This document shows, one piece after another, positions 28,101 to 62,503 of a stretch of 64,000 nucleotides of DNA. Under the pieces are notes generated by a model, which did no database searches, had not been told where the DNA came from, and saw only the letters and a list, made by a program, of their open reading frames with translations. The stretch comes from Ilex aquifolium (taxonomy: Eukaryota; Streptophyta; Magnoliopsida; Aquifoliales; Aquifoliaceae), in assembly GCA_951799425.1 (NCBI GenBank), contig OX637402.1, positions 30,038,492 through 30,102,491 of the forward strand, written 5' to 3'. A program made the position numbers and the translations under genes. Each line of letters begins with the position of its first letter. Position 1 is the stretch's first letter.

Positions 28101-31100
28101 CTTGGTTGTTTTTGATGAAAGCTCGATCTGAATTATTCTCTATATTTGAGACCTTTCGTAAGGAGATAAAAACTCAGTATGGTTGTCGTATACGTACTTT
28201 ACGTTCTGATAATGCTCGGGAATATGAATCTGATCCTTTTTCAGCTTATCTTAGTAAAACTGGCATTATTCATCAAACTTCTTGTGCTTACACATCTCCA
28301 CAGAACGGTGTTGCTGAACGCAAAAACCGTCATTTGTTGGAAGTCACCCGTGCCTTGTTATTCCAGATGAATATTCCCCGGTATTTTTGGAGTGATGCTG
28401 TTCTTACTGCTTGTCATCTTATTAACCGTATGCCATCCTCTGTGTTAAATGGGCAAAGTCCATATTCTGTCCTTTTTCCTAGTAAGCCCTTATTTTCCTT
28501 ACCACCTAAGGTTTTTGGTTGTGTCTGTTATGTTCACAATTTGGGTCCTGGGTTTGATAAACTTGACCCTCGAGCTACCAAATGTGTATTTCTTGGTTAT
28601 TCCCGCACACAGAAGGGGTATCGTTGCTACAGTCCTTCTCTGCGACGATACTTTACTAGTGCCGATGTCACGTTTGAGGAATCTGTTCCATATTTTTCAG
28701 CACCTTCTCAGCCTTTGGATCTGGACTTTGGGTCATCTCCTGTACCACCATGTACTTCAGATATTCCGCTGCCCATTGTGTTGCCATCTACTTTACCTCT
28801 CCGTGTCTACTCTCGCCGTCCTCGCCCATCGACTGAGGTGCCCGTACCGTCTTCCTTGCCGTCTGCTGATCCTGGTCCATCAGGTAATTTAGACTCTCTA
28901 CCTATTGCTCTTCAAAAAGGTACTCGTTCGTGTGTTACTAATCATCCCATTGCTCATTTTGTTTCATATGATGCCTTATCTCCTGTCTTCTCTTGTTTTA
29001 CCTCTCAATTATCTACTATATCCATTCCTAAGCGTTTACAGGATGCATTATCTGATTCGGGTTGGAGGAAAGCTATGGAGGATGAGATGGATGCCTTACA
29101 TCATAATGGGACTTGGGATCTCGTTCCTTTACCTCCTGGTAAACGAACTGTTGGTTGTCGTTGGGTGTATACTGTTAAGTTTCATCCGGATGGTTCTGTG
29201 GAGCGTCTCAAAGCCCGGCTTGTTGCAAAGGGCTTTACTCAGACTTATGGTGTTGATTATGAGGAGACTTTCTCTCTTGTTGCTAAAATTTCCTCTGTTC
29301 GTATCTTGATTTCTTTGGCTGCTAATCTTGATTGGCCCTTGTTTCAGTTAGACGTCAAGAATGCCTTCTTACATGGTGACTTGGTTGAAGAGCTATACAT
29401 GGAGCAGCCACCTGGGTTTACTGCTCAGGGGGAGTATAGTAAGAGTGTATGTCGGTTAAAGAAATCTTTGTATGGTTTGAAGCAGTCACCGAGGGCATGG
29501 TTTGGTAAGTTTTCAGATGCAGTTTTGGAGTTTGGTCTTCTTCGATGTCAGACAGATCATTCTGTGTTTCATAGACAGACAGATGCTGAATATGTGCTAT
29601 TGGTAGTCTATGTAGATGATATTGTGATTACTGGGAATGATTCTGAGGGGATTGCCAAGTTAAAAGTATTCTTGCAGGATCGATTTCACACTAAGGATTT
29701 GGGAAAACTCAGGTATTTCTTGGGTATTGAAGTGGCTCGATCTAAACAACGTATTTGTTTATCCCAGAGGAAATATGTGCTTGACATGCTAGATGAAGCA
29801 GGTTTGCTGGGTGGCAGGCCTATTGATGTTCCTATGGATCCGAATCAGAAACTATTGATGGATGATGGTGCACTGTTTGAGAATCCTGGTCGGTATCGCA
29901 GATTGGTTGGGAAGCTCAATTATCTCACTATTACTCGACCGGATATTTCTTATGCAGTCAGTATAGTAAGTCAGTTCATGGGGTGTCCTAGAGTACCACA
30001 TTGGGAGGCAGTTACTCGTATTCTGCGATATCTCAAACGAGCTCCTGGACTTGGATTGTTATATCGAGCTAATGGACATCTTAGAGTGGAAGGTTTCTCA
30101 GATGCTGATTGGGCTGGCTCTCCTTCTGATCGGAGATCAACCACTGGTTATTGTACTTTCTTAGGAGGTAACGTTGTCTCATGGAAAAGTAAGAAACAAT
30201 CTGTGGTAGCGAGATCCAGTGCTGAAGCTGAGTATAGGGCAATGGCACATACGACGAGTGAGTTGACTTGGTTACTACACTTCCTCCAGGAAATTGGACT
30301 TCCAGTTCAACATCCTTTACAGTTATTCTGTGACAACCAGACAGCTATCCATATCGCTGCCAATCCTGTGTTTCACGAGAGAACCAAACATATTGAGGTT
30401 GATTGTCACTTTATTCGGGACAAGATAGTAGCTGGGGAGATTACAACTCCATTTGTGAAATCTGAAGATCAGCTTGCAGATATGTTTACCAAAGCATTGA
30501 GTCGTACACGTCTTACAGCGATTTGTTCCAAGCTTGAATTATATGATATATATAGTCCAGCTTGAGGGGGAGTGTTAAGAGTATTAGGGTAGTATGTGTA
30601 GATTGTCTATAGTAAGAGGGTGTATGTGTAATTATTATTATTGTGAGTTAACTATAAATACAAGTGATGTATGAGAGCTAGGTTAAGTTTTAACCTCTCT
30701 CTGTTTCCCTCTAATATTATGTTAATCTTCTACACTTAACACCTTCAACCTTTTATTTTGCCGTCACTCAAGTTCAATTTTCAATGAAGTCTCATGTCAA
30801 ATTCCACAATCAAGAGGCCTTGTGTCCATAACCTTCTAAACAACAATCCAACTATCCTCAGAATCAGAACCCCCAAGGAGTACAAAACACAATTTCAGAA
30901 AACTTGGTAACTGTTGATTCAATTTTATGATGACTTCGAAGTGTAGAATCCACCAAATCGGAATCCTTCTAGAATCATCAAAACTTATAACAAATTTTAT
31001 GTGTAGTGCTGCCTAGCCATATGAGGCTATTCGTCATGCATAGGCTCCATCATACTTACTCAAGAAAGCAGATTCAATCGAGCTAGGAAACAGTTCAAAA

Positions 31101-39360: not shown

Positions 39361-41024
39361 TCAGCTAGAACTACCAGCAGGGTAGGCCCTAAATCGCCCA
39401 TCAATATCTCTTTGGTTCTGTTTGCTTGAAGCAGCACCATAGCTTCCACCTGAACCCGAAGAAACTACATCTACACAGCCCCTATCAATCGGAGTAGGCA
39501 TCATATCAGCTGCCACTTGTGCCTCCCCGCCACCAATTTGACTAGGTTTTTCATTACCTCCCGCTCCCAAAATCCCACTATAACCATTGGCTATCATACC
39601 CACCCCACCATTCAAGTAGGCAGGATAAACAGTAGCAGCACTACCACAAGGCAAGAGACTTCCCCGAACACCAACCATTGCGGGACCATTCCATGGGCTT
39701 CTAGGTGCAACTGGAGCAACCCCGTAGCCAATACCGCCGTATGATCCAGTAGGGTAACCAGCCCCAAGAACTCCTGCTCCGTAATACCCTGTAACACCCC
39801 CATACCCAAAAACAGGTCCATAACCGGGAAGCATCTCGTACCTAGGACTATAAGGTGCATAATTACCTTGCTGATAACTGTTGGAGTTAGAACCTCTTCC
39901 AGTACCCGCTCTCGCATTATAACCACTGCTATTGTTGTTATTTCCCTCTTTTGGAACAGCCCTCTTGACCTCCACAAGCTTGCCACTCAACTCATAATAG
40001 TTCTTCTGCATAACATCCGCAACAGCATCCTCAGAATCGAAAGTTATAAACCCAAATCCCCTTGGCCTGTGGGTAACATTGTCATGCATCACAACTACAT
40101 CTGTTATCCTACCGAACTTCTCAAAGTAACTCTTGAACTCTTCTTCAGTTAGATTAGCTGATAATCCCCCTACAAAAATCTTCTTAGTCCTAAATTGATC
40201 ACTGCTCCTACCACTACTTCTACTGTTTCTAGTCAACCATCTACTCTGTTGTTGGTTTTGGTGTTGTTCACTTCTCGGTATGGCTTTTTTCACCTCTACC
40301 TATAAAAACATGACAGAATATACCAAATAATCTCAAATAACCCAGAATATAAAACATATACTAACGCAATTTTATTTTCTTCATTCTAAGAGTAACAGAA
40401 AGACATCCAATGCAAAAAGATGACAAACTAACAGTGAAAGTTAGTACAACCATGCATAGAAAATCTAAGCTAACAGGGAAAAAGTGATTTCCACCAAAAA
40501 AAAAACTACCTACAATAAAATTGCAGAACAAATTTAAAATACACCCGGGAAAAAAAGCTAACAAGATACAAAAGTCATTCAAGCTAGATAAGAAAAAAAA
40601 TACTTGGAGAGAGATTGAGGGGTTTCCCACCCACCCTGATCTACCCACATTGCCACACGGAAGAAAAAAATAAAGAAGGCAGAAATTAGAGGAGAAAAAG
40701 CCTATTCAAACATATAAAACCCAGGCAGGCTTAAAGCATAAAACCAAATTATATATGTCTATCTGCATTCAGGAAGGAAAAGGAGGGTTTTGAACAGACC
40801 GTTCTACCAAGAATTTCATGGGTGTCTTCAAGCGCTTTATTCAAAGCATCTGAGTCCGACAAGGAGACAAAAGCAAACCCTCTAGGGCTTCCCGAGTTTC
40901 GATCTTTGGCGACCACACAACCAACAACAGTCCCGTACTGACCGAAGTGTTCTCTTAGCGTGTCCTCAGTTGTATCCCAACAAATTCCTCCCACAAACAG
41001 CTTGCTATGGTCGGAATCATCCAT
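39361..41024 (-). CDS. Two-RRM RNA-binding protein, hnRNP A/B-like
   Basis: Predicted 387-aa nuclear RNA-binding protein resembling plant heterogeneous nuclear ribonucleoprotein 1. There are two coding exons, 41024-40800 and 40299-39361 (stop TGA 39361-39363), with a GT-AG intron in phase 0. RRM1 (about residues 7-82) has RNP2 LFVGGI and RNP1 RGFAFVSL. RRM2 (about 116-192) has RNP2 IFVGGL and RNP1 RGFGFITF. The C-terminal half is a Gly/Tyr/Asn/Ser-rich low-complexity region (YGPVFGYGGVTGYYGAGVLG), typical of hnRNPs and of proteins that condense. The start MDDSDHSKLFVGG fits the family. The leader holds a GA microsatellite (41055-41093). Confidence 0.94.
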
Positions 41025-42281: not shown

Positions 42282-42815
42282 CTAGTTATTGTCTGTGTCT
42301 GAAGACACAAAATAATAAAAAATGGTAAACAATAAATATATTTGTATTTATATCCAAAATCAAATCACAAACATAGAGGAGAGATAAATGAATTTAAGCA
42401 TCGGCTGTAGTGGAGGTGAGAGGTGGTGGTGGTAGGAGACGGTGATGGTTGTGGTGGCAGCGATGGCGATGGTGGCGACGGTGGTGGTGGCGGCGATGAC
42501 GATGGCGACGACGATGGTAGTGGTGGTGGTGGTGATGACAACGACGGTGGTGGTGGTGGTATAGGTAGTGGTGGGGCGGTTTCAAACAATATATATTTTT
42601 TTAATATACTTATGAGAAATAATTTCTAAGAGTACTTTTAAAAAGTTACTCCAAACACACCCTTAAGGGCCTATTTTTCCTATTAAATTTAGGGTGTTAA
42701 TATTAGCCGTTAGATTAACTTTAAAGTAAAATTTAAAGCGATCTCAACTGCGAATATTAAAAGTCATTTTGTTTATCTTTTGAGATTTGAATTGTGAGCT
42801 ACTTTATTATATAGA
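42282..42815 (-). mobile_element. Non-autonomous Helitron, copy 1
   Basis: On the minus strand the element begins TCTATATAATAAAG after a host A (complement of 42816). It ends with a 6-bp-stem hairpin GTGTCTTCAGACAC, nine bases and CTAG (42285-42282), followed by host T. A|TC...CTAG|T is the canonical Helitron pattern. It shares both flanking arms with copy 2 at 45860. It encodes nothing recognisable; the interior is a GGT-rich satellite. Confidence 0.72.
42418..42580. repeat. GGT/GAC-rich satellite inside Helitron copy 1
   Basis: About 160 bp of degenerate GGTGGTGGT, GGCGGCGAT and GACGACGATGG units. Long spurious frames arise here (Pro/Ser- or His/Arg-rich on the minus strand, Gly/Asp-rich on the plus strand). 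Confidence 0.85.
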
Positions 42816-45800
42816 TATGTGTGTGTGTGTTTAATTTTTAGCTTCATTAGATAGTAGACGATTGTTTTTGTAAGATAAGATTCATATACGGGCACCTATT
42901 TAAAATTATGATATAGAGAGAGAAAAAGAAAAAAAAAGTAACGTGATCATAAAAACTCTACACTACAGCGTTTGGTGTGTATCTTTAATGTAGACCATTA
43001 GATCACGATTTAACGGTCATTAGACAAAAATACTCAAAATTAATCATCAAAACCTACCAAATTTTAACTCTGAACTAAATACGAAATGTCAATCACGTAT
43101 TAGGAAATTGGTGAATTTGTATGAATTTGATGTCTATGGCTGTCATTGCTCCTTGGTGGTATCTCTTATTGGACTGGGCGCCAGAAGCCCAGATGAGATA
43201 AGCGTCAGGCCTTATTTAAAACCTAGGCCCGCTAAGACTCATCTTGGCTTTGGGCTGCCACTCAAGTTCGAAGTTTCAAAGCGCAACGAGACTTTTTTTT
43301 CTTCAACAATGGTCATGGAATTTAACTTGGTTCCTCTTGAAGACCACAGCTATGAACTAATTTACAAAAAATAGCTTGGTGCTCCAATTTTAAGTCGATT
43401 CCAAAGATTCAAAACTCAATTCCAATTTCAAACCCCTAATTCCACTCTTTTAATCACAAACGTGAACGATTTCTAGTTCCCGTCACAAGTTTGAAGAAAC
43501 GTATAATTTTTTTTTATGATCAAACTTTTAGCATATCATGCCCAATTGTATAAGGAATGTATGACTAAGACGGTAACAAAATGTATACGATTTATGTTAT
43601 TATGGGCTTTGGTGAGGATCAAATAGACATAATTTTTTTCTCTTATGCAAACAAATTGTCTAATGGCTTCGACTTGTCACACCCAAACAACCATAGAAGA
43701 AAGATACTTAACATTGATTATATAATACCTGGAGAAAGATACATTTGATATATAAAATAATCTATATCTTCTCCGGTGGGTAAGATCTGTTCATGGAGGA
43801 AGGAAAAACTGTCGCAGAGGCGGTGCAGGCTGACTCAATCCCGAGATCTTCTCACATGGCAGTGCTAAAGCAAGAAGTAATCCTCTTATTAGTATAATCA
43901 ACCAGCCTAATGCGTGCGAATATTCGATAATCGGGTCAAAAATTATTATATTTTCATGGGTTTGTGAACATAACAAAAAAAATTCCACATTAATTATTTA
44001 AATAATCTATCATTTTAGATTGTTTAATTCCGTTGCATGTGAGATAAGAGATTTGAATAGTTCAAGTTGTTGGGTCTTCTTCACATTCATTCCTTTCTTA
44101 TTTTATTTTATTTTTTTTTAATGGTCAGGATTGTCCGAATCAACTTATGTGCACCTCGATTAATCCCCTCTTTAGTCTGCTTAAAGACAGGTCATCCATA
44201 CCGAGACTAGAGTATTCAAGAGAGATAAATCATTCATAACCTGACCCCAAGAAATTATCAAAAATTGAATTCAGGACGTTCAAATTTAGGATTTATCCCT
44301 ATTATCACTTGAACTACTGTCAGACTTGCATTTTTTTGCTTTCAATTTAATTTTAAATGACGTTTTAGCTAGAATAACTAACAGCTATCGTTAACAGACC
44401 CATAACTGTGATTTGTAAATTATCTAGACAAATTTTAGTTAAAAGATAATTGAGAATGTATTAATTTTTTGAAGCGTTAAGATGAATGATTGTAAATTAA
44501 GGGATTGAAGTAAAGACTAAAAGCAAAAGCAAAAAAAAAAAATTTGTTAGAAGCATGTTTAATAGGCTTGTCAACAAATTGAATTTAGATTAGATTTGAG
44601 TTCATCTGAATTCGAATCCGATTAAAAGATCCATTATCAAATCTGACTCATTTATCCAACAGGAAGAAAAATATTATTCCATATTCGAATCTGCTTATAA
44701 TTGGACATTTAGTCCGATTACCCGATCTGATCCATAATGATATTTCATTAAAATTTCAACAAATAATTTTTTTTAAGATCAAATACAAATAATCAATATA
44801 TATATATTAGTGATGAAAATATTGATTCATATCCAATTAAATTCGGTGGGACTACTCTTTTAAATCTTAGGAGTTAAGAAATGCTATGGGGTTTCCCAAT
44901 CTCAGTTGCATGACCAAAGTTTGTCTTCTCTTCTCTTGGTTGTCATAAAGAATACTCAAAAGTTTCTTTTTTAATTTATCTCCGACTTGCATTTTGTATT
45001 GGTTAGGGTGCCAAATTATAAAGGGATTGTTTGGAGTGAGATTGTTGATGTCATGAGTGGAGCCCAAAACACGAATAATTAAACTATAATTAACTTTGCA
45101 TTACCCTTTGTTGGAATTTGATCCAAATGGTACCCTACATCCCCCCCCCCCCCCCCCCCCCCCCAAGGGCTTAATTAATCCAGGTTACTCTTGAAAACTT
45201 CGTCATATGCTTTGGTGGTCACGTGCCATGCATGTGGCAATTGCCACCTTGCACTTTCAAAGTTGTTATTTTTATCGAATGCAAAATCTCGATCACACAT
45301 GCATTAATTCATTTTTATTCAACTAATCATACTTTTTTATTTCCTGCTCGAAAAAAAGGTAGAGAAGCAAAGAATATCGCTCAAAGACCATCTTAATAAG
45401 CACTCTCACTAGTGAGATCATGAAACCAACTAATCATACTTGTTATTATAATAGTAACCCCTCAAAAGATGGACCAATGGTTTTGAATGGTCGAGGAGAG
45501 AAAGAACTACATTCGACTACCCTATGTTTAGAAGTGAGATTCATCCGATGTATATATTTTTTAAATTTTTTTAGTGGATTGTCTATTATGTATTAAATAC
45601 AAATGAATCTTTTACTCATTAATAGTAGATTATTTGCTAAGAAAAAATATATTAAAAAGAATCTAAATCCCTATGTTTATGCTACGTTAAATATATTTTG
45701 ATTCTAAAAGTGGTAAAGAATTTATCTAAATTCCTCTAATACATTTTCCTTTTGTCTTTTTTTTCATATATCATCTGTATTTAGTGATTAAAGAAGCCAC

Positions 45801-45859: not shown

Positions 45860-46989
45860 CTAGTTATTGCTCATAGCTTGAAGGCACGGAGTAATAAAAA
45901 AATAGTCAACAATAAATATATTTGTATTCACTGCAAAATCAAATCACAAACATAAAGAAGAGAGAAAAGAATTTAAGCGTCCGTTGTAGTGGGGGTGAAC
46001 AGTGGTGGTGGTGGTGGGAGACGGTGATGGTTGTGGTGGGTGACAACAGTGATGGTAGTAGCAGCCATGGGTGACGATGGTGGTGATGGTGGGTGACAAT
46101 GGTGGTGATGGTGGGTGACAATGATGGTGGTTGGCAGTCGTGGTGGTGGGGCGACGACGGTAGTGGTGGGCGGTGACAATGGTGGTGATGGGCGTCGATG
46201 GGTGCTTTTGGAGGACAGTGTGATGGGTGGTGGTGGCATGTGCGGTGGGGATGAGTGAAAATAAGTGGCGGCAGTGATGGGCAATGACGAATAGTGGTAG
46301 GTATGGTGGGGGTGGGTGACAATGGCTGACGGCGATGGTGGGCGACAATGGCTGACGGTGGGTTGTGTTAGTGGGTGTAGACGGTGGGCGACGATGATGG
46401 TGGTAGTGGTAATGGTGGTAGCGGGTGGTGACGGTAAACGACGGTAGTAGCAATCGGTGGTGGGTGGTGATAGTTGTAGTGGGGGTGGTTGTGCGGCGAT
46501 GGAGGTGGTGGTGGGGCGATGGGGTAGTGGGGGTGGTAGTGGGGCAGTGGCAATGGTGGGGATGATGGTGGGGCAGTGGCAATGGTGGGGGTGGTGGGGT
46601 GACGGCGACGACGATGGTGATAGTGGTGGTGACGATGGGGGTGGGAGTAGTTGTGGTGTGGGGGTGGTGGTGTTACGACGATGGGTGTGGTGGTGGTGGT
46701 GATAGTAGTGGTGGGGCGGTGGGAGTGGTAGTGGTGGTGGTGGTAGGGCGGTTCTAAACACTAATTTTTTTTTCAAAGTACTTATCAGAAGTTATAAATT
46801 CTAGAAACACTTTTAAAAAGTCATTCTAAACATACTCTTAAGGGCTTATTTTTCCTATTAAATTTGGGGTGTTAATATTAGCCGTCAGATTAACTTTAAA
46901 GTAAAGTTTAAAGAGATCTCAATTGCGAAAAACAAAAGTCATTTTATATATTTTTGAAATTTGAATTGTATTGTATTTTATTATATAGA
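45860..46989 (-). mobile_element. Non-autonomous Helitron, copy 2 with expanded satellite
   Basis: The ends are the same as in copy 1. On the minus strand it starts TCTATATAATAAAA after host A (complement of 46990) and ends AGCAATAACTAG (45860-45863 on plus) followed by host T; the hairpin is decayed. The right arm (plus strand CTTAAGGGCTTATTTTTCC, GGGTGTTAATATTAGCCGTC) is clearly homologous to copy 1. At 1130 bp it is about twice the length of copy 1, almost entirely because of the satellite. Confidence 0.72.
45990..46752. repeat. Expanded GGT-rich satellite in Helitron copy 2
   Basis: About 760 bp of GGTGGTGAC, GGTGGGTGACAATG and GGTAGTGGGG-type units on the plus strand. Higher-order repetition is visible, for example GGTGATGGTGGGTGACAATG repeated near 46085-46120. 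Overlapping open frames in several registers encode only Pro/His/Thr- or Gly-rich repeats and are not genes. Confidence 0.88.
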
Positions 46990-49900
46990 TATTGAATGAT
47001 ATATTACTCTGTAAAAAAATAATCTTTTAGGCTGTAACAAAGAGAAGCCCAGCTGATTACATTGACAAAAAGAATGATTGGTCTAACTTATACTAAAATA
47101 AGGAATGAGAAATGGATTTGATAAAAAAGAGTTTGGGAGTTCGACCTTAGAGACCATTTGTGTTAGCGGGATAATGGTAGAAAATATAAGAAATAGAAAT
47201 TTTTAAAATTTTAATTTGTTTTGTTAGTATGAAATAAAAAATGATGGAAAAAATTAATTTTCTTTCGTGCTCAATTTTTCTCACAATTAATCAACTTTTT
47301 TTTTCTTGTAAAAAACATAAGAGAATGCAAGAAAGTTGTGATATATAACTAACTTTTTATTTTATCTTTATTTTTCTTAAAATATTTTATTCATTATTAA
47401 TTTTAAAAAATCTTGGTATGAATTTGGTTAGCCATATAATTTAGCTCAGAGACCTTAGTGCTAATTCTTATCCCAGAATTAGATTAGGAGCCATTATTTT
47501 AAAAAAAAAAAATTAACTTTTAATTATAATACATATTTTTTTCTTCTTTAAACCGATATAATATAATTAAAGGTAATTTAGACAATTAGCAAAATTTTCT
47601 TGTAACTTTCCTTTCTTTCAAACAATTGATTGAATTTTTTTTAAAACTTTCTCCCAACAAATACATCATCTTCTTGGTGATAAAAATATTTATAGTTGGA
47701 ATGATCGTGTCAATTTTAGTTATAGCAATGTCGATCATTGATTATTCAGTATCAAGGACATTTATTTGAAATTTGATAACACTTTTTTGCTAGGATATAT
47801 AATGGGGGACTAATGTTATTTGGATCAAAAAAATCTGACTTAATCTATTAACCTAATGATGTAACAGTAACATGGTCCAACACAATTATCATAGCTCTAA
47901 TTGTTGAATTTTTTTCATTGGGACACATCATTAGATCAAATTTTTAAGTTCAAATAACATTACTTATATAGTGAGAACAACTTTTTCATATATTTTCATA
48001 CTGAAAAATAGATTATGTTATCAAAAAATTACTATTTTTAACATCATAACTCCTATTTTTGTTCAATGGAAATGCATCATGTGAAATGTTTTATATTTAT
48101 TATTTTCATGATTATTAAAAATTATAAAGAGTAATATTATTTAAATATAATTTCTTGATATAGTAATTCATAATCATTGAATTGACAGTAGATCCCAATA
48201 TATTTTAAGATCCATAACCAATCCAAGAGTATTAATAGATTATGTCAATAAATTAGATCAAAATAATACCATTAAATTTTAAAAATAAAAAATCAAGATT
48301 CACCCCTAAGAATTATTGTAGACAAGGTAGACAAGGAATAGGGGGAGGCAGCCTTAAGGAAACCTTGGGACCTAGGCTCTCGCAAGAAGACACCCACGTA
48401 AAGAGGATGACAAAAGGATGGACAAGGCATGGTGCCTCCTCGAAGATTTTTATTCTTCTTTATCTTGACCAACAAAGCAAGTTGACAAGACATGCCTTTG
48501 GGATTACGCATTCTTACAAGACTCTTGCAAGTCCCAGATAAAATAAAAAACAATTTTTCAACGCATAGGTTCTTGGTTTGTTTTTTTGCCAACGCATTGA
48601 TATTCGATACCCGTAGGCTTATTTTTTATTTTTTTTACAGGATATTTAGTTATATATCGATTACTCTTTCAAATTCGAACCGATAAATGTACTGTTTGTC
48701 TATATTATTTGCTGCTAGCTAGACAAGCATCCTCCCTCCTGCATAAACATAGACTACAGTCTATATAACATCACAGCTGTAGCCAATTGATGAACAACCA
48801 GCTATGGCTATTAGGAGGGCTAACAAGTTCAGGGACATAAGTCAATGAAAGCCACAAGTACTCAAACATTGATCTCAACAAAAAGGAAAAAAAAACAAAA
48901 AACAAAAAACAAATAAGCAACATTTTTTTAAAAAAAAAATTGAATTTAAATTGGTAGAGTGGGGTGTAACATTAGTTTTTCGTTTATTAAAAGGTTCGAC
49001 ATTCTAATTTACGAAGAATTCTCAATTTACTCAAATTTTTAAGAATCACAACTAATTTCAGTGTCAGAGAGCGTTAAATTTATACTACACCAGTGTTCCT
49101 AACCTTTGCATTATTCCATAGACGATCAAATCAAAGCCATATCTCTATTTTTTTTCTTAGGGATCACGTGTTACAAATTCAAGTGACACTCATTGTATAC
49201 AAATAGATCGTTAACTCTTTAAAAATAAACGATTTGCTAAGAAGGAAAATGAAAGAAAAAAAAAAATTAGAATCCAGTGCTAGTTGCTACTGACTGTTCA
49301 TTAATGCCTCCATGGTAGGAGGACAACACACCCTTCTGCTTAAGGTTTGTGATTTCACAATGGAAGTCCAATAAAAATGGTGGTTACAACTTACAAGACA
49401 GAAATTGAAAAAGATGGGGTTAGGTCTCAGTGACCCCAGGTTCCTTAATTTTCATGTCCCTCCAGTAGTTGAACCATCTCAGTGAAACACCACTATCAGT
49501 GGCTAATGTATGAAAAAAGTGCATAGCACACACATGCAGTGGTTGATACTTGGCAATAAATATCACTACAGCCCCCTTATGTCCTTCGCAATATCATTAC
49601 TTGTGTACCTAATTTCATCTCAGTTTTTGCCCATAAAAAGTAAACCAGGTTGCTAATTGAGGGACTCCCTGGTATGCTTAAATGCCTTGTTCTTGACTTT
49701 GGCTACAAATAGTACTACAGTTTTTAATCCTTATACCTAACAGAACTAATGAAAAACCCTCATGATAGTAACAGTGTAATACACATTAAAGTTTAAACAC
49801 ATTCCAGTCAAGACTACCAATATGAGCCACATAGTTATAGTCCTGTAAGACACTACATGGTAGCTTCTGTAAGACTATCAATATGAGCCACATAGTTATA

Positions 49901-50868: not shown

Positions 50869-51315
50869 TATTTAAAATATAAAAAATTTGTTGTAGTGTA
50901 TATTAAAAAAGTGAGTAGTTAAAATATAAAAAAAAATTATACTTTTAAATAACTAAAATATAAAACCTTATTGGAAATGCTTTAAGTAGGGTTAAGGCTT
51001 GTGGGTGGGTTGCCCAATAGCTCCTCATCCTATTATACCATGGCCAAGGTAAGAAGGATATGCATGGCTAGATAAAACAACCCCCAATGTATTTTTGTTG
51101 TATTCGACAAATTGTGGTAGAGAATATCTTAGCGGTGAAATAGATCCCAATAAATGTTAGATATTTTTACATTTTAGTGAGCCGTGAATTAGTTTTATTG
51201 GATGAAATACCTTATCTCGTTGTAATTTTTTTCCTTACATTAATGTTTTTCATGTCTATATATAATAACACAACGTACTCCATAAATACAACGGTATTGG
51301 AATTCAAAAAATAAA

Positions 51316-51528
51316 GGGTTAATTGCACTAATGGTCCCTTAAGTTTACAGCTTATTAAACTTTCGTCCCTAAAGTATCAATTTAGTCCTCAAAATTTGGG
51401 TATTGAACCAAAGCTGTCCTTCTCCCTAACTGTCGTCCAAATGTCTAACGGAAAACAATACGTGCGCAACACGTGTAGAAGACAGAAGGGCATCACTGTC
51501 TTTTCCCATTCTTTCCCGCCCATCCAAC
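51316..51528. repeat. MULE left TIR
   Basis: 213 bp running from GGGTTAATTGCAC to CCGCCCATCCAAC, inverted at 56267-56488. Confidence 0.93.
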
Positions 51529-51701
51529 TGTCTTCAGGTCACGTACGATGCATGATTTGGAACATCAAATCGTCACTTCAGAGAATGGAAGAGAGACCAT
51601 CCTATTTTGTCTAGGGTTCTAAGCAAAATTGGGGAAACTGGGGAAATTGAATTTTGCAGTGCTGAAGTGCATTGTATTCAGAGAATTGAAGGTTGACAAC
51701 G

Positions 51702-54700
51702 ATGGCTGGAAGGTTCAATGAGTATCAATTGGAGGACGACAGTTACGGTAAACATTTAGTGTTTTCAATTTGGGTTGAACATGACGTGTTGCAAATTTTT
51801 TTTCTTCAAAAAATCATATTATGGCAACTGGTTGCTTGCAAAGAACTATGGATTTGAGTGTGTTTCAAAAAAGTTGTTGCATGCATAGTCCTAAAAAGGA
51901 ACTGTGTTATGTTAGTGTAGTGGGTCCTTTATGCACTTATATAAAATTCAGTGGTCCCTCATTTTTTTGTTTTGTTTTGTGTTGCAGAGAAAGATTCCAA
52001 ATATTTTACTTTAATATTGCACCATAATTGTGAATTCCGAAAGAACCCAAAGATGGTTTATGAGGGTGGTCAGGTTGAATACTTCCACCACAAGCACCCA
52101 GATTACATGTCATTGTTGGAGCTTGACGAAATGGCTAAGCAGTTAGGATACGAATGGGAGATTCTGAGGTATCATTACTGTATACCAGAAAAGGACTTGG
52201 ATTCTGTTTTGATTTGTTTGTTTTACGACTCACAAGTTTTCACTGTATTCAACACATTGTACCCCAACACTGTTGCTGACGTTTACATAAAACATTGAAC
52301 AATCGAGGATGTTATTGATGGCCAAGACTTCGCAGAAGATTATGTTGAAAACAGACATTCAGTTGTAATTGAGGAGATTAATGAAAATGATGTAGAATAT
52401 AGTCAGGTTTCTGAAGTCCTCAACATAGATTACTGTAATAGAAAAAATTTGCTAGAGTATTATGAAGTCAATGCAAGTGGTGATGCTGGAGGAGAACAGA
52501 TGGTGAATGCAGGAGAAGAACAGAGAGTGAATGGAGAAGATCAGAGAGTGAATGGAGGAGAAGAACAGAGAGTCAATAGAGGAGAACAAAGACTCAATGG
52601 AGGAGAAAAACAGAGAGTCAATGGAGGAGATGACCAGAGAGTAAATGGAAGAGAGAATGGAGGAGATGACATGCCTCATGAGAGAACCAGTGAGTCAATG
52701 GAAAGTGACATGCCTCAGGAGAGCAACAGGGAGTCAATGGAAAATGACATGCCTCATGAGAGAAACAGGGAGTCAATCAGGGATAGTGACAGTTCTGATT
52801 ATTCTGAGTTATATGATAGTGAATATGAGCTTGATGAGGATGACAGATTGTATGAGACAAACGTGGATAAAGATGTTGAATGGGCTGGTGTAGGTGATAA
52901 GGGTAAGGGTGTGAAGGATGGTACTTCAGCTTTTCAAGGTACAGATGAAGATGATGTGCATTCCGACTATGCAGATTTAGATGAATTATGTAGTTTTGAT
53001 GATTTATCTTCAGAGGATGATGGTGTCAATGTGAGGAAGCCAAAGTTCCCTGAGTTTAGAGCTGCCACTGACATGAAAAACCCATCTTTCAAGCTAGGAA
53101 TGTTGTTTGGAACAGCTACTGAGTTCAAGACAGCAATAAGGGAATATGCAATTAAGGAGGGAAAACAAATAATATTCAAGAAAAATGACCATGGTAGGGT
53201 TAGGGCAGTGTGTAAAGGGAAATGTAAGTGGTTGTTATTTGCATCTGTCATGGAAGATGGGAAAACATTCCAGGTTAAAACATTCAATGACAAGCACACA
53301 TGTGGAAGATCATTTCACAACAAGAATGCAAACTCAACTTGAATTGCTAATACATATGTGGATGAGATTAGGGGGAATCCTGCATGCCCAGTGGATGCCT
53401 TCATAGAGAGCATAATGAAGGATCATCAAGTTCCTGTAACACCTCATCAAATTTATAGGGCAAAAAGAAAGGCAAAGATAATGATTGAAGGTAGCCATGC
53501 AGAGCAGTACTCCAAATTATTTGAGTATGTTGAGGAGTTGCGGATGACTAATCCAAACAGTGCAATAGCTATAAAATTGGATGAGTTGTCAGAGTTGGAA
53601 GGTGAGCCTAGGTTTGAAAGAATGTATATTTGTTTAGATGCACTGAAGAAGGGTTTCAAAAAGGCATGCAGACCAATATTGTGTTTGGATGGTTGCCATT
53701 TAAAAGGTCCTCATGGTGGCCAGCTTCTCTCAGCAGTGGGACTAGATGCCAACAACAATATGTTCCCAGTAGCATGGTGTGTGGTAGAGAATGAATGAAC
53801 AAACACATGGTCATGGTTTCTAAACCTTCTGGTGCAAGACTTTCAAGTAAGTAACACAATTGGATGGACTATAATGTCTGATAAGCAAAAGGTACATTTA
53901 CTGTTTGGATGGACTATAATGTCTGATAAGCAAAATGTACATTTATTGTTATCTTTTTTTTTTTTTAATCTAGTCTACATCAAATACTATCATTGAACTG
54001 AATAGTATATGATATTGTGTATATAGGGGCTAGAACGTGCAATTTATGAACTGCTTCCAAATGTTGAACATAGGCATTGTGTTAGACATTTATACAACAA
54101 TTTCAACCAGAAACACAAGGGTAATGCACTTAAGGATTTAGTTTGGGTTGCTGCAAGATCAAGTTATGTAAACTTATTTAAAGTGAATATGGAAAAAATG
54201 AAAGTTGGAGATGCAGAGGCATGTGCATGGTTTGATGATAAACACCCAAGGAATTGGTCTAGGTCCCATTTTAGCACACATCCTAAATGTGACATATTAC
54301 TTAACAATATGTGTGAGTGCTTTAATGCTTACATACTTGGGGCTAGAAACAAACCAATCATATCAATGTTGGAGACAATTAGAGGTCTCCTTATGAAGAG
54401 ATTATATATGAAGAGAAATGCAATGGCAAAGTGGGAAGGTGAAATATGTCCCAAAATTTAAGAAATTCTAGAGAAAAACAAGAAAGAGGCTTCTTTTTGC
54501 ATAGCATATTATTCTGGGGGTTCTAAATTTGAAGTTAGACATTGTTATGGTGATCAGTTTGTTGTGGACTTGGACTCCCAAACATGTGCATGCATAAAAT
54601 GGGATTTGAGTGGCATTCCTTGTTCTCATGCCATTCAGGCTATTGTATACAAGGGAGATGAACCTGAGAAGTATGTTTATAAGTGGTATCACAAAGAGAC

Positions 54701-55316
54701 GTATATGAAGGCTTATGGGAACAATATTAATCCCATTAATGGGCAGAAGTTATGGCCTACATGCACTGAGACTCCCCTTTTACCTCCATTTTACCATAAA
54801 CAACCTGGGAGGCCAAAGACAGTAAGAAGAAAAGAACTGGAGGAAATAACCAATTCAAATCCAAATAAGCTGAGAAAGTTCCAGAATTCTTTAAGGTGTG
54901 GAAAATGTGGTGTGAGGGGACATAATAAGAGAAGTTGTAGAGTTGTTGTGATAAATCCAGCTACAGGTTCTGGGACAGGTGTAGGGGCAAGTGTTGAGTC
55001 TGGTACAGGGGCTGCTGCTGCAACTGTTGGAACAAGTACAGGGGCTGCTCCTGCAACTGTTGGAACAAGTGTATGGGCTGTTGCTGCAACTGTTAATGTA
55101 AGAAGAAAGAGAGCCAACCAAGAAGGTGCAGGAACAGTGTCAAGTGGAGTGACTTCTGCAGGAGCAAACACAGATGGAGTGGTTTGTCCAGGAGCTGGTG
55201 CAACCAATGTTTCAAGTAGGAGAGGTAAGTTGGCTGTGAGGAAAAACAAAATGAATGCACCAGCCACAACACCAACCACAACACAAGACTCATATTCTGC
55301 AGGAGGAGCTCAGTGA
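51702..55316 (+). pseudogene. MuDR-type MULE transposase, four in-frame stops
   Basis: Exons 51702-51747, 51988-53891 and 54027-55316, all GT-AG and in one frame. Domains in order: a PB1-like N-terminus (FTLILHHNCEF, VYEGGQVEYF); a hydrophilic tandem-repeat region (VNGGEEQR and related units, about 52480-52790) followed by an acidic stretch; the MuDR DNA-binding region (FRAATDMKNPSFKLGMLFGT); and the MULE catalytic core. In the core, Asp lies in LCLDGCHLKGPHGG, Asp in TIMSDKQKG, the Cys-His motif in HRHCVRHLYNNF, and Glu in NMCECFNAY. Then come the SWIM zinc finger (CACIKWDLSGIPCSH), a CCHC-like knuckle (CGKCGVRGHNKRSC) and a Gly/Thr/Ala-rich tail. Stops interrupt the frame at 52296-52298 (TGA), 53340-53342 (TGA), 53796-53798 (TGA) and 54459-54461 (TAA). 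I see no frameshift. It is therefore probably inactive here. Confidence 0.93.
53861..53950. repeat. 45-bp tandem duplication over the transposase splice donor
   Basis: The block starting TGGATGGACTATAATGTCTG at 53861 recurs at 53906. It duplicates the end of exon 2 and its donor; the first copy keeps AAG followed by gtacat, while the second reads AAT at the same place. Confidence 0.9.
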
Positions 55317-55746
55317 CTACTGGTGGAATCCAAGAAACTTTTTGTTTAGGGTTTAATGTTCCCTATTTTGATAGTACCATCCTTCTGATATTGAACTTGT
55401 TGAATGTAATAGGTTCTTAATGTCCCCCTTATTTTATGTACTGGCTACTGATTGTAGCATCCTTTTGGAAGTGAACATGTTGGATGTAATATGTTCTTTT
55501 TTGTCACTGTAATATGTTGGATGTAATATGTTCTTGATAAATATTATGGTGTTTGTTGGATCACTTGATAACAGAACAAAGTTAGGGGACAAAATCGATA
55601 CCAATTGCACTGACATACAAAATATATATTAATTTACAACTTGCCAATAAGATACACTTTATACATTAACAAAGTACAAAACTGGCATCTTAGCAACTAC
55701 AACACCCATAACCAGCAGCCTCATTTTACAATGGAGTACAGCAGCT

Positions 55747-56211
55747 TCATTTTGTTAACAACCATAACCAAGTAAGTACAAGCAACAACCACACAACTTT
55801 CTCTCTCCGTTGAGATCTGGTAAGCTTCCCTTCTATCAGTGTGATTTTCCTGAGTAATCCCGGTATGATTTTCTTCGATCGCATACACATAGGAGGATCA
55901 TGCCACACAAAATACCCACATCCGCCATTTCGCTGCATATTCCAACAAAAACAGGTTAAACAAAATACCCACATCCGTCATTTCACTGCATATTTCATAA
56001 AATTTACCTCATTTCTCTCACATCCAAGGAATCTTCTTCTTGGATTTAAATTTGTCCAAGACGTTACCATTCGAGTCTTTCTCCCACACTTGCAGTACGT
56101 CTGATCCATATGGACCTTGGGATAAAACTTGGCTTCGTTCTGTGATGATTCTTGGCTTCGATTGCAACTTGTCTTCGTTCTGTGATGAAGCTTGCCTTGG
56201 TTCGCCCCCAC
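55747..56211 (-). CDS. GRF-type zinc-finger protein carried by the MULE
   Basis: Small protein with a zf-GRF domain, similar to plant proteins of the At4g04775-like group. Exon 1 is 56211 or further upstream to 56008; exon 2 is 55932-55747 (stop TGA 55747-55749); GT-AG, phase 0. The zinc finger reads YCKCGRKTRMVTSWTNLNPR, RRFLGCER, then NGGCGYFVWHDPPMC, with Cys at the expected positions. SKKIIPGLLRKITLIEGKL matches the helix following the finger in relatives. No ATG precedes the finger at the 5' side; either the first ATG (just before DQTYCKCG) is used, or an upstream exon joins at the acceptor-like TATTTCAG near 56213-56220. The family is a presumed nucleic-acid binder; its role in transposition is unknown. 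It converges with the transposase, as second genes do in MuDR-type elements. Confidence 0.82.
55925..56000. repeat. 53-bp duplication of a splice acceptor and exon start in the zinc-finger gene
   Basis: On the minus strand ATATGCAG(T/C)GAAATG(A/G)CGGATGTGGGTATTTTGT occurs twice, 53 bp apart. The upstream copy lies in the intron and has TGA where the used exon has CGA. Confidence 0.85.
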
Positions 56212-56266
56212 TGAAATATATTAGGGTTCCTCAAATCAGATCAGATATATAATGGGAGAGAAGGAG

Positions 56267-56488
56267 GTTGGATGGGCGGGAAAGAATGGGAAAAGACAGT
56301 GATGCCTTTCTGTCTTCTACACGTGCTGCGCACGTGTTGTTTTCCGTCAGACATTTGGACGACAGTTAGGGAGAAGGACAGCTTTGGTTCAATACCCAAA
56401 TTTTGAGGACTAAATTGACTAAATTGGTACTTTAGGGACGAAAGTTTAATAAGCTGTAAACTTAAGGGACCATTAGTGCAATTAACCC
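56267..56488. repeat. MULE right TIR
   Basis: 222 bp, inverted copy of the left TIR. The 9-bp excess is a tandem GACTAAATT near 56409-56426. Confidence 0.93.
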
Positions 56489-57614
56489 AAAAATAAATCA
56501 TCTGTTACATTAAATAAAAGAGTAGCATATATATATATATATATTATATCATAAGAATAACTATACAGTAAGTAGAAAAGAAGATAGATTCAAAATGAAT
56601 TCACTCATGAAAATATGAGTGCAATGGTAGGGTAGGGCCCTGAGAATGGTGGCATGATATATTCAATGAATAGAACCAGACAAAGGGGTCGTGTAGGCCC
56701 CACACAACCCCTGTCGGCGAAGAGGAAGCCAGCCCCCTCTATCTCCATCTCGCTCTCCCCAACCCGGCAACTCTCTCTCTCTCTCTCTCTCTCTCTATAC
56801 ATATATGTCCAAGTATATATGACGCTGTATAATGTGCATGTACCACCACCACCACCAGCCCCTTTGTCCTAGGACCATGTCGTGATGGGCCACCACGTGC
56901 CACCATAGGCCACCACGCCCTACCGTTGACACGTCAACATCACACTATACACCCCTCCTCCCTCCTCTCTCTCACTCTCTCTCTCTCTAGCTGGCACACA
57001 GTGTTGGGACTTGGGATTCCGAGATGATATGATAGAGATAGAGATAGAGATATGGGGTAATATGTAAAAGAGTGTATGTACTGTATTGTATAGGTGTGTG
57101 TTATGGATGGGTGGCGTGGCGTGGTTGCTTTTTCTTTTTCTATTTCCACTTTTATTGCAAGGATCCAACTATAACAAACATATTCACTTTTTCATCTACT
57201 TAAAATTTGTCACTTATAATGTTTTTAAATATTCTTGCTTTCAGTTAATTTATTATTTTTAAATAATTATTACAAATTATTTCAAACAAAATCAACACCT
57301 CTAAATTAATTTTAATACAATATCTCTAAATTATCATAGTTTTATCCAAATTGAAATTTTCGAATTTTCTTCTCCACCTAATGCCCACCCACGTAGCCAA
57401 TGGTAAAAGGGTGAGAGCTAAATAGATACCCTACTTGGACTGTAATTCGTGGCCATTACAATGCACAAGCTTCATATCAATCGATGGATAGAGAGATATC
57501 ATAAGCAGCAGGAGGAGCTTCTTCTGTCTACTGTGATGATCAAGACTTAATGTTGAAACATGAATCAGTAAAACGAAACTCTATACAACAATTAACGAAC
57601 CATTTGAATTGTCT

Positions 57615-58813: not shown

Positions 58814-61800
58814 ATGGATTTTGGGACGGTGGGTTTGGATGGGTTTGTGTGTTTGGACAGCGGCTTTGCTTCTTCTACAATTGCTTCAGATCCTGAGGCC
58901 AAGCAAAAGTGGTACGGATCTGGGGGTTTTCTCAAGCAGGGAAGGTCTGGGACTAGTACTGAAGATGACTGGAGGGACTTGAAAGTGACCAAAACTAGTG
59001 ATGATTTCTCAGCCTCCAAGGCAATGTTGCTCCAGCATAGAAGTCCTTTACTGAGATCTAATAGCTCTCTACTATCTGATGGTCAGCAGATGCTAAGCTT
59101 CTCTTCACCCAACTCACAAACTGTGGCATTCCCTTACTATCTCAACTCATCAAGTGCTTGTAGTAGAAATACAGGTATATAATCATTTTTAAGACTCGAG
59201 ACTGCCTGATCTTATTGCACCATAGGTGAGGAATAGAAAGTGATGTGTCACAGACTTTCAAGTTTGTCATTTGGGGAAGTAAATGGGTATGTGTTCAGTT
59301 GGTGTTTCTTTAAACTTTTAGTACTATTTTATGAAAAGAGTTTTGGTATTTAGAAGTTAGTTTTTCGTTTTGGGGTTTCAGAGATTAGTTGTTGGCTATT
59401 TGGGCATTGATTGCAATTAAATATGGGATGGTTTTTCATGTAAATGAACTTATTTGTATTGAGTCTTGTCAAAAAAGAAGTGATTTTTTCTTCTTCTAAG
59501 GTCTTCCTGTTTGAAAGGAGAAAGCTTGTGGTGATATTTCAGCACAGTGGACTATAGAGTACAAAAGAAGAAAATAAGAAGCATGGATAGAAAGAAAAAT
59601 AGGAGCAACAAAAAACCCATCTTTCCATTGATTGGTTCTGATTTTTGTTTTTGTTTTTTTTTCCCTTTCTGTGCTTTCGATATAAAGAGGAGAAATTCAT
59701 GATAGTTGTAACCTCTTTAAATGTTGCAGAAAACTTATAATTTGGGGTTTCCTGTCACGCCCCTTTCTCTGATTTTGCCTTTAGACTTTGTAGTCAGATA
59801 GGAATTTCGTTTTCAGTTTACAGGGAAATAGTTTTTGGATTTTACTTTTCTCTCTGTCACAAATACCTGATTCTTTAGATCTTTCTGTTTCAGGCTATGG
59901 CTCTGGAGGCTTAAATGCTGCAAGCATTCATGGGGTACTAACAGGGGTTAGAGGGCCATTTACTACTTCCCAGTTGATGGAGCTTGAACACCAGGCCTTG
60001 ATCTACAAATACATGACTGCAAATGTGCCAATCCCATCTAATCTTCTCATCCCCATCAAAAAAGCCCTTGATTCTGCTGGCTTATCTACCTTTTCAGGCC
60101 TAAGATCCAATTCTTGTAAGGATTTTTTTTTCTCTTTATTATGTAGCAGTATGCCCTCTCTAGCAAGATTTGTATGGTTGTCTTTCATTTATGAATCTTA
60201 ATGTGTACCTGAAACAATGTAATATATTGGGTGATCGACCTCTCCCTGCCTTAGGGGTTGGGTTTGGAGGTGGGAGGGTGTTCTTTGTAACTTTGTGAAA
60301 ATAAAGAGCAAATAACTTTTTAGTCCTTTGTGTCTTTGTTCCTTCTTTCTCCTCTGTTCCTCCCTCCAAACCCCACACCGGTAGCCCTGAAAAAGAACCC
60401 TTCTGAGGTCCCCCTTCCAACTTCTCAAATCACACCTCCCTCCTGAACTCATCTCAAAGCTGAATCCACCAGCCCCTAAAATGACATGGGCGTGCCCAGT
60501 GCACGGAGGCTCCCCTAAAATGACATCCACCTGGAAAACCTCACAACCACCACAACTTTTAAAGGAGACTGGGATTCCATCCCCTGAAAACCACCACAAT
60601 AATTGCAACCACAACCAAAGACAGGAAAAGGGTGGAGCACAAATAGAGCCAACCAAAGAAAATAATTTTCACCCATCTTGTAATAGATATGTGGTCATTT
60701 AGCTGTTATACCTCACTTTCATATATATTTACTTTTCTTTGTGCAATGTAGGATTTGGTATAAGGAATTTCTTGATTTAAGTTCAATGTTTAAAATAAAG
60801 AAATGTTGTAATAAACATAGACATCTCAACATTTGGAATACTAATGTGGACAATGTTTTCTTTTGCAAACATATTTTTTTTCTGTTCTTCTTTCATGATT
60901 TAAAATGTTCCTTGTATTTTTTTTTTTTTACCAGGGGGGTGGGGCTCTTTCCATTTCGGATTCTCCACCAACAATGATCCTGAGCCTGGAAGGTGTCGTC
61001 GGACTGATGGGAAGAAATGGCGGTGCTCAAGAGATGCCGTTGTTGACCAGAAGTATTGTGAGCGGCACTTGAACCGGGGCCGCCATCGTTCAAGAAAGCC
61101 TGTGGAAGGCCAAACTGGCCATTCCGTCTCCGGACCCACCACCACCACCACCACGACTACCACCACTGCTAAGTTGATGCCAATGGCTTCCTCCACTTCG
61201 GCATCCATGGTGCCCGGCAGTGGCACATCCAACAGCCTCAGCCTGTCACACAACCACCAGTTCAATAACTTGCAGTTGCAGGCTGGTGCACCTAATTCTT
61301 CTCCATCCCCCAACCTTTGCAGGTGAATACCATGATAATAATTTATGACGTTTCTTAGTTTTTTGCATCTATCCAAGTCCACTAATATTCATAAATTTAC
61401 CATGCTGTTGGATTGTATGCATGGGTTTCAATTTGCCTTATGTCACTGTGAAGTGGTGCTTACATTATCCTTGTTATATTGATGAGAATGACTGATATTT
61501 CTCTCAAGGAGTATTGTTTACATTAGTTGTGCTTAACTGGTAATTAGCTATTATACTTATCTGATTGATTATTTTCATGGCATAAGGTGGTTTTACAAGT
61601 TCCCATCTGTAGAATTCTGGAATCACGCTGACTTTTCTCAATGGTTTGTATGATATAAATAGGAGTTTTCTGAACAAGGAGAACATGGGTGATAGAAATC
61701 AAGATCACACTGGCCTCTCCATGCTAACTCCAACCATTGGCCTGAAAAAAAACCCATATTCCATGCCTGAACAGCAGAACCTGTATGAAGAACCCGCGAG

Positions 61801-62503
61801 GGCAGAATTTGGGTTTGTCTCCACCGACTCCTTGCTCAACCCTCTGAATAAAAACTCTTCGTTCATTAACTACCGAAGCTATGGTTCATCGGAAGATCTC
61901 CGTGACCAAGAAACCAAATCACATCATTCACTTCGCCAGTTTATGGATGACTGCCCTAAAAGCCAATCTGAACGCTCAGCCATTTTATGGCCCGAGATTG
62001 GTCTGCAATCAGACAGAACCCAGCTCTCTATTTCAATCCCGATGGCTTCCTCAGACTTCATGTCAGCTACTTCATCTCCCACCAAAGAGAAGCTTGCACT
62101 CTCACCGCTGAGATTATCGCGGGAGCTGGATCCATCTCAAAGGGGCTTGGGAGTTGGTACAGTCCTCCATGATCCAAGTCAAAGGCAAGCAAATTGGGTT
62201 CCTATCTCCAGGGAGACTTCCATGTGTGGACCTCTTGGAGAGGTTTTGCATAGCACTAACAACAATGTGAACGATTGTATGAACACATCAGTTCTTAATC
62301 TCATGACTGAGGGTTGGGACAGTAGTCCCAGCATGGCATCGTCTCCAACTGGAGTCTTACAAAAGGCGACATTTGGATCTCTTTCTAACAGCAGTGCCGG
62401 AAGCAGCCCAAGAGCAGAGAACAACAAGGCACTTGAAGGGGCCAGCCACTGCAATGGCATCCTTGGCTCAACTCTCATGAATCCTTCCTTGCCTGCTTTG
62501 TAA
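58814..62503 (+). CDS. Growth-regulating factor, GRF1/GRF2-like
   Basis: Nuclear transcription factor of 603 aa that works with GIF coactivators to promote cell proliferation in leaves and meristems. Exons 58814-59174, 59894-60115, 60935-61322 and 61663-62503, all GT-AG and phase-consistent. The QLQ domain (about residues 141-176) reads [20 protein letters not shown] and onward to [15 protein letters not shown]; it binds GIF proteins in this family. The WRC domain (about 209-253) reads [18 protein letters not shown], then [19 protein letters not shown], giving the C3H zinc-binding set and the nuclear signal. A poly-Thr run follows. The long C-terminus has the [15 protein letters not shown]-like [32 protein letters not shown] and [20 protein letters not shown] blocks of the GRF1/2 group. 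The start [10 protein letters not shown] fits relatives. The transcript carries a miR396 site in exon 3. Confidence 0.95.
61087..61107 (+). promoter_or_regulatory. miR396 target site in the GRF WRC exon
   Basis: The 21 nt begin CGTTCAAGAAAG and end CCTGTGGAA, the canonical plant GRF site, and encode RSRKPVE at the end of the WRC domain. Pairing with miR396 leaves the characteristic single-base bulge. The family-wide role is post-transcriptional repression of GRF genes by miR396. Confidence 0.95.

Follow-up and report, generated by a model that had tools for sequence, protein, structure and literature searches.

Several Mutator-like elements (MULEs) are described as carrying protein genes besides the one for their transposase, among them mudrB, mutB and vanB/vanC (PMC6446971; this and the other papers named below are cited from partial texts). 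In maize MuDR, long terminal inverted repeats (TIRs) and a 9-bp target site duplication enclose the transposase gene and a convergent second gene, mudrB, near the other repeat (PMC6446971, PMC9168764). Type II Abermu elements of barley and other plants also have long repeats, mostly 9-bp duplications and a transposase open reading frame (ORF), with an opposite-strand ORF, ORFR, before the 3' repeat; transposase and ORFR occur together in 13 plants, ORFR is absent in 17 of 38, and the ORFRs vary between lineages (PMC9168764). Here we describe a MULE at positions 51316-56488 of a 64,000-nucleotide stretch of the Ilex aquifolium genome (contig OX637402.1, positions 30,038,492 to 30,102,491), referred to as the window. 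We read it as a defunct copy of a flowering-plant MULE that is MuDR-like, of the autonomous type and equipped with two genes. Its second gene is of the GRF zinc-finger type (zf-GRF), which is, as far as we have seen, a new type of second gene on a known MULE plan.

The element is complete and ~5.2 kb long, and both of its ends are exact to the base. They are marked by the following features.

51307-51315, no strand: left copy of the target site duplication, AAAAATAAA, identical to 56489-56497
51316-51528, + strand: left TIR, 213 bp, defined by alignment to the right repeat
56267-56488, - strand: right TIR, 222 bp, with CACGTG starting at 56320 and again at 56331
56489-56497, no strand: right copy of the target site duplication, AAAAATAAA, identical to 51307-51315

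The two repeats share 209 of 213 aligned bases. All four mismatches are transitions, and there is also a single 9-bp indel, whose block is present on the right side only; BLAST aligns them at 94.1% over 222 columns, gaps included (E=2.8e-96). With 213 and 222 bp, they are long TIRs of the kind that in MULEs reach up to hundreds of base pairs. The duplication AAAAATAAA is exact, and its length of 9 bp lies within the 8 to 11 bp given for MULEs (PMC6446971). It is A-rich and occurs 11 times within the window; between the ~0.5-kb flanks of the element, the share of agreeing 9-mer pairs is 7.8e-6 (about 2 of ~255,000), one of them being the duplication itself. The preliminary description of this locus had proposed just this anatomy, namely, a MULE with long TIRs, a perfect 9-bp duplication and a transposase gene accompanied by a convergent zf-GRF-like gene, and it proved correct to the base. 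We rejected the idea that the GRF gene sits in a nested insertion, as no further long inverted repeat is listed in 51000-56800. Searches for RNA genes returned no structured RNA at the gathering threshold and no tRNA.

The plus strand of the element holds a MuDR-type transposase gene in three exons, whose splice sites were inferred from the exon model.

51702-51747, + strand: transposase exon 1, from the exon model (inferred splice)
51988-53891, + strand: transposase exon 2, with premature stops at 52296-52298, 53340-53342 and 53796-53798
54027-55316, + strand: transposase exon 3, with a premature stop at 54459-54461

The model comprises 1079 codons, all in the same frame, which is interrupted by four premature stops but not by any frameshift. 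Exon 2 encodes an acidic, repeat-rich N-terminal part, the MuDR DNA-binding domain and the first part of the MULE catalytic domain, and exon 3 encodes the remainder of the MULE domain, a SWIM finger and a CCHC-like knuckle. In a Pfam search run on the translation with X at the stops, PF10551 (MULE, 65.7 bits), PF03108 (DBD_Tnp_Mut, 42.4 bits) and PF04434 (SWIM, 25.5 bits) all scored above their cut-offs, while the CCHC-like knuckle near the end of the protein gave a weak match (E=0.73). The acidic region preceding the DNA-binding domain is composed of tandem repeats of 21 to 24 and 39 bases. A whole transposase can no longer be made from the present copy, which with its four stops is not autonomous itself; its membership in the family is unaffected. 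Nor is the element a Pack-MULE, a type that has host gene fragments inside and lacks a transposase gene, given that this gene is present here, though broken. Separately, we observed a 45-bp tandem duplication (53860-53949, 96% identical) that spans the end of transposase exon 2 together with its splice donor.

The second gene is encoded on the minus strand (56109-55747), converges on the transposase gene and is open from ATG to stop over 95 codons in two exons.

56008-56109, - strand: zf-GRF gene exon 1, with the ATG at 56109, Cys6, Cys8, Cys30 and the RRRF signature
55933-56007, - strand: zf-GRF gene intron, 75 nt, GT..AG, phase 0, with an in-frame TGA and the donor GT at 56007
55747-55932, - strand: zf-GRF gene exon 2, with Cys39 (the fourth zinc ligand), GCGYFVWHD, a linker and the hydrophobic C-terminus; the stop codon ends at 55747
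55756-55797, - strand: hydrophobic segment VVWLLLVLTWLWLL, residues 80-93, with a mean Kyte-Doolittle value of 2.56 over 14 residues

Members of the GRF family bind zinc through four ligands, of which the first two have a single residue between them, and carry the signature GRxF (PMC9369019). The product has all four ligands (Cys6, Cys8, Cys30 and Cys39), with the first pair one residue apart. After splicing, the 95-residue protein matches PF06839, the sole Pfam family found for it, over residues 5-46 with 25.6 bits (E=1.3e-5). This match depends on the inferred splice, since the unspliced frame of exon 1 reaches only 10.3 bits (E=0.8). Given that splicing joins the three zinc ligands of exon 1 with the fourth in exon 2 and raises the PF06839 score, we conclude that the split gene is real rather than a chance frame.

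Within the intron lies one half of a 38-bp duplication (35 of 38 bases identical; 55907-55997, copies 53 bases apart), which copies the gene's own acceptor and the first codons of exon 2. Splicing to the upstream, decoy acceptor would shorten the intron to 22 nt and run into a stop. The intron would also be only 22 nt long if the 38-bp duplication were taken out of it. We compared the divergence of the intron copy from exon 2 (3 of 38 positions, 8%) with that of the two TIRs (4 of 213, 1.9%; Fisher p=0.07). If the intron copy drifts freely, its larger divergence would place the split of the gene before the last insertion of the element; at this p value, such a dating of the split against the repeats is too weak alone, and we rejected it as independent evidence.

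These details also bear on the view that the zf-GRF gene has no product, being either a chance frame or a remnant that died long ago. The borderline Pfam score, the altered signature, the inferred splice sites and the 22-nt decoy acceptor could all be read in this way. Against such a reading stand the E value of the PF06839 match, the presence of all four ligands, the canonical splice sites and the result of a six-frame search of the 64-kb window, in which the regular expression [GRK]RxFxxC matched only once, in the zf-GRF gene. We regard this view as very unlikely.

Compared with the GRF fingers of APE2, NEIL3 and TOP3A, the product shares a C-x-C first ligand pair, two later cysteines and R.F ahead of the third ligand. 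In those proteins, the finger forms one domain of a repair enzyme, whereas here it accounts for almost all of the protein, which has RRRF instead of GRxF and ends in a hydrophobic C-terminus; the alignment of the product with NEIL3 is weak. Small plant zf-GRF proteins (At4g04775-like) are of similar size and consist of the finger, a short coil and, often, a hydrophobic end.

The arrangement of the two genes is mirrored at both ends of the element. The start codon of the transposase gene lies 173 bp inward of the left repeat and that of the zf-GRF gene 157 bp inward of the right one, and the genes converge so that their ends are ~430 bp apart. As in MuDR, the second gene (56109-55747) lies on the opposite strand between the transposase gene and the other repeat. 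A pattern scan found sequences with a putative promoter role in both of these end regions.

51470-51475, no strand: CACGTG (G-box core) in the left repeat, a candidate promoter element
56245-56251, - strand: TATA-like stretch inward of the right repeat and ahead of the zf-GRF start codon, a candidate promoter element

The left repeat has one CACGTG (51470) and the right one has two (56320 and 56331), compared with ten in the whole window. The repeats of maize MuDR act as promoters for both of its genes, and by analogy, together with the layout, the TIRs of this element probably drive both genes as well.

Set beside the described systems, the locus shares with maize MuDR its long repeats, its 9-bp duplication and its convergent second gene. 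That mudrB is such a gene had been pointed out in the preliminary description and is borne out by PMC6446971. The second products differ, the one found here being a 95-residue GRF-type zinc-finger protein, while MURB, from which it is set apart by description, is described as being of unknown function and required for integration. With Abermu, the element shares the opposite-strand gene as well as the repeats and duplication; Hvu_Abermu is 8.2 kb long and the present element 5.2 kb, again a comparison by description, and the term GRF is absent from PMC9168764. The VANDAL/KAONASHI and ULP1-carrying MULEs have extra protein genes too, VANC being an anti-silencing factor. They are largely without terminal repeats and carry other extra domains, and the portions of the papers on them that we cite mention no GRF finger.

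On this basis, we give about even chances to the zf-GRF gene being an accessory gene that belongs to the element and has a single-strand-binding role in integration. Four observations lead us to regard the gene as the element's own: the mirrored, convergent layout; the whole ATG-to-stop frame with an intron, as opposed to a gene fragment; the G-box cores in both repeats with the TATA-like stretch before the small gene; and the published precedents for convergent second MULE genes, mudrB (PMC6446971) and ORFR of Abermu (PMC9168764). The joining of the zinc ligands by splicing and, weakly, the larger divergence of the intron copy point the same way. The small protein would then have been retained over earlier rounds of transposition, rather than being a fragment caught by this copy.

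The leading rival reading is capture. MULEs frequently take up host genes, and ULP1 was acquired repeatedly, in either orientation, by grapevine MULE families (PMC2528002, PMC13317346, the latter reviewing both the capture of ULP1 and element-coded anti-silencing). In this case, the element would have transduplicated a small plant zf-GRF gene as DNA, intron included, and would carry it unused, like the gene parts in Pack-MULEs or like ULP1. The altered GRF signature is in line with such a passenger, and so is the open frame, which is explicable without selection (see below). The frame is whole, though, and begins just inside the repeat, at the position of a second gene; no recognizable host flank was noted around the zf-GRF gene, an observation with no host-genome comparison behind it. 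We consider a captured passenger possible, if somewhat doubtful.

The zf-GRF gene had been said in the preliminary description to look more intact than the transposase gene. As a count, this holds, with premature stops in 0 of 95 codons versus 4 of 1079. Statistically it does not: at the decay rate of the transposase gene, the Poisson chance that 95 codons stay free of stops is 0.70, and it is 0.48 when the count is limited to codons convertible to a stop by a single C>T or G>A transition (10 in the zf-GRF gene; 53 plus the four stops in the transposase gene). We therefore rejected intactness as a sign of selection on the zf-GRF gene.

Several observations weigh against an accessory gene of the element's own. 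The lack of stops just described is expected by chance. The similarity search found no second copy of the MULE within the 64-kb window, and with this single copy, retention through transposition is something that we infer. The PF06839 score lies 0.3 bits under the gathering score of 25.9 bits, and the signature reads RRRF instead of GRxF, with Arg and Phe kept and Gly replaced by Arg; the zf-GRF call made from the sequence alone thus stands as a real match, but as a borderline one. Given the exchanged Gly, the protein of the present copy may be impaired. Among structures in the PDB, only two entries were matched, both of them NEIL3 and neither significant (E=0.053 and 0.024). For Abermu, the authors of PMC9168764 suggest that ORFR is perhaps unimportant for transposition. 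Finally, the hydrophobic C-terminus, whose segment at residues 80-93 stops two residues short of the end of the protein, fits poorly with a soluble nuclear helper.

If the zf-GRF protein is nonetheless an accessory factor of the element, the mechanism that we consider most likely would build on single-strand binding. Single-stranded DNA is bound by the GRF fingers of APE2 and NEIL3 (PMC9900424, PMC9266487), and by analogy the finger encoded here could bind such DNA at the ends of the excised element or at the gapped target. In this way it might assist the transposase during integration or the repair of ends, in a role comparable to that of MURB. Judged from its sequence, the hydrophobic C-terminus is a possible tail or membrane anchor and would hold the protein at a membrane.

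This last feature could also be accommodated by an anti-silencing factor, that is, a zf-GRF protein lifting the host's silencing of its own family, like VANC of VANDAL. With a membrane tether, it might influence the production of small interfering RNAs there, or it might compete with an APE2-type GRF finger at demethylation intermediates. Element-coded anti-silencing is known from VANDAL MULEs (PMC6446971, PMC13317346), and a study of the intermediates of 5-methylcytosine excision included an assay of Arabidopsis APE2, which is depicted with a GRF-type finger (PMC4191409). No sequence feature of the zf-GRF gene points to silencing specifically, however, and VANC targets motifs in the non-coding regions of its own family. 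We consider an anti-silencing role quite unlikely here.

The sequence collections scanned for relatives were viral and prokaryotic, and misses in them are uninformative about plants. No relative of the zf-GRF protein was confirmed from 15 pattern stretches in viral contigs or from 59 in prokaryotic genome contigs, and none of the transposase piece from 10 pattern stretches in viral contigs, where the 24-base repeat end had no match either. In the open literature, we found no report joining a GRF finger to a MULE, although one under other words is possible.

The preliminary description had suggested that At4g04775-like proteins may be MULE passengers and that an accessory or anti-silencing role is conceivable. 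A wider idea is that a large share of the small plant zf-GRF genes that stand alone belong to two-gene MULEs as accessory genes, or descend from such genes, and encode membrane-anchored, single-strand-binding helpers or anti-silencing factors that have been annotated as ordinary zinc-finger genes. We think this rather unlikely, but if zf-GRF genes were regular partners of MULEs, the family would need to be re-annotated as mobile wherever it appears as a regulator in plant genome-wide association, methylation and expression lists. Twelve GRF zinc finger genes are, for example, among 2207 differentially methylated genes of peanut (PMC6293580), and one is among the differential genes of switchgrass (PMC5206262). 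Entries enriched in Asteraceae include GRF-type zinc fingers alongside 18 transposon entries (PMC10359422), which fits the idea of a MULE partner but does not place those genes inside elements. GRF-type proteins would then join MURB and VANC as a third type of MULE helper, making the role of MULE second genes testable by comparison.

A host gene at 59959-62503, ~3.5 kb beyond the MULE, has QLQ (59959) and WRC (60994) motifs, by which we take it to be a growth-regulating factor gene. Despite the shared abbreviation GRF, growth-regulating factors are unrelated to the GRF zinc finger, and the part of PMC10469895 that we cite seems to mix the two.

Elsewhere in the window, a short Ty1/copia element (26819-30741) has 169-bp long terminal repeats that are 100% identical and a 5-bp target duplication, CCTTC. 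It encodes integrase, SH3-like and reverse transcriptase domains, with the coding region split by a frame change near 27800-27884; only ~200 codons precede the integrase part, and a full gag thus seems to be missing. On the minus strand at 14106-16921, YRGVTR motifs at 16297 and 15391 suggest, from the motif only, a host gene with two AP2 domains (AINTEGUMENTA-like), and the two long ORFs of this region gave no AP2 match in Pfam. A host RNA-binding protein gene lies at 39361-40299 on the minus strand (RRM, PF00076, 62 bits). Beside long GGT/CCA-rich tandem repeats, a pair of direct repeats of ~320 bp (42508-42818 and 46675-46992) is 81% identical.

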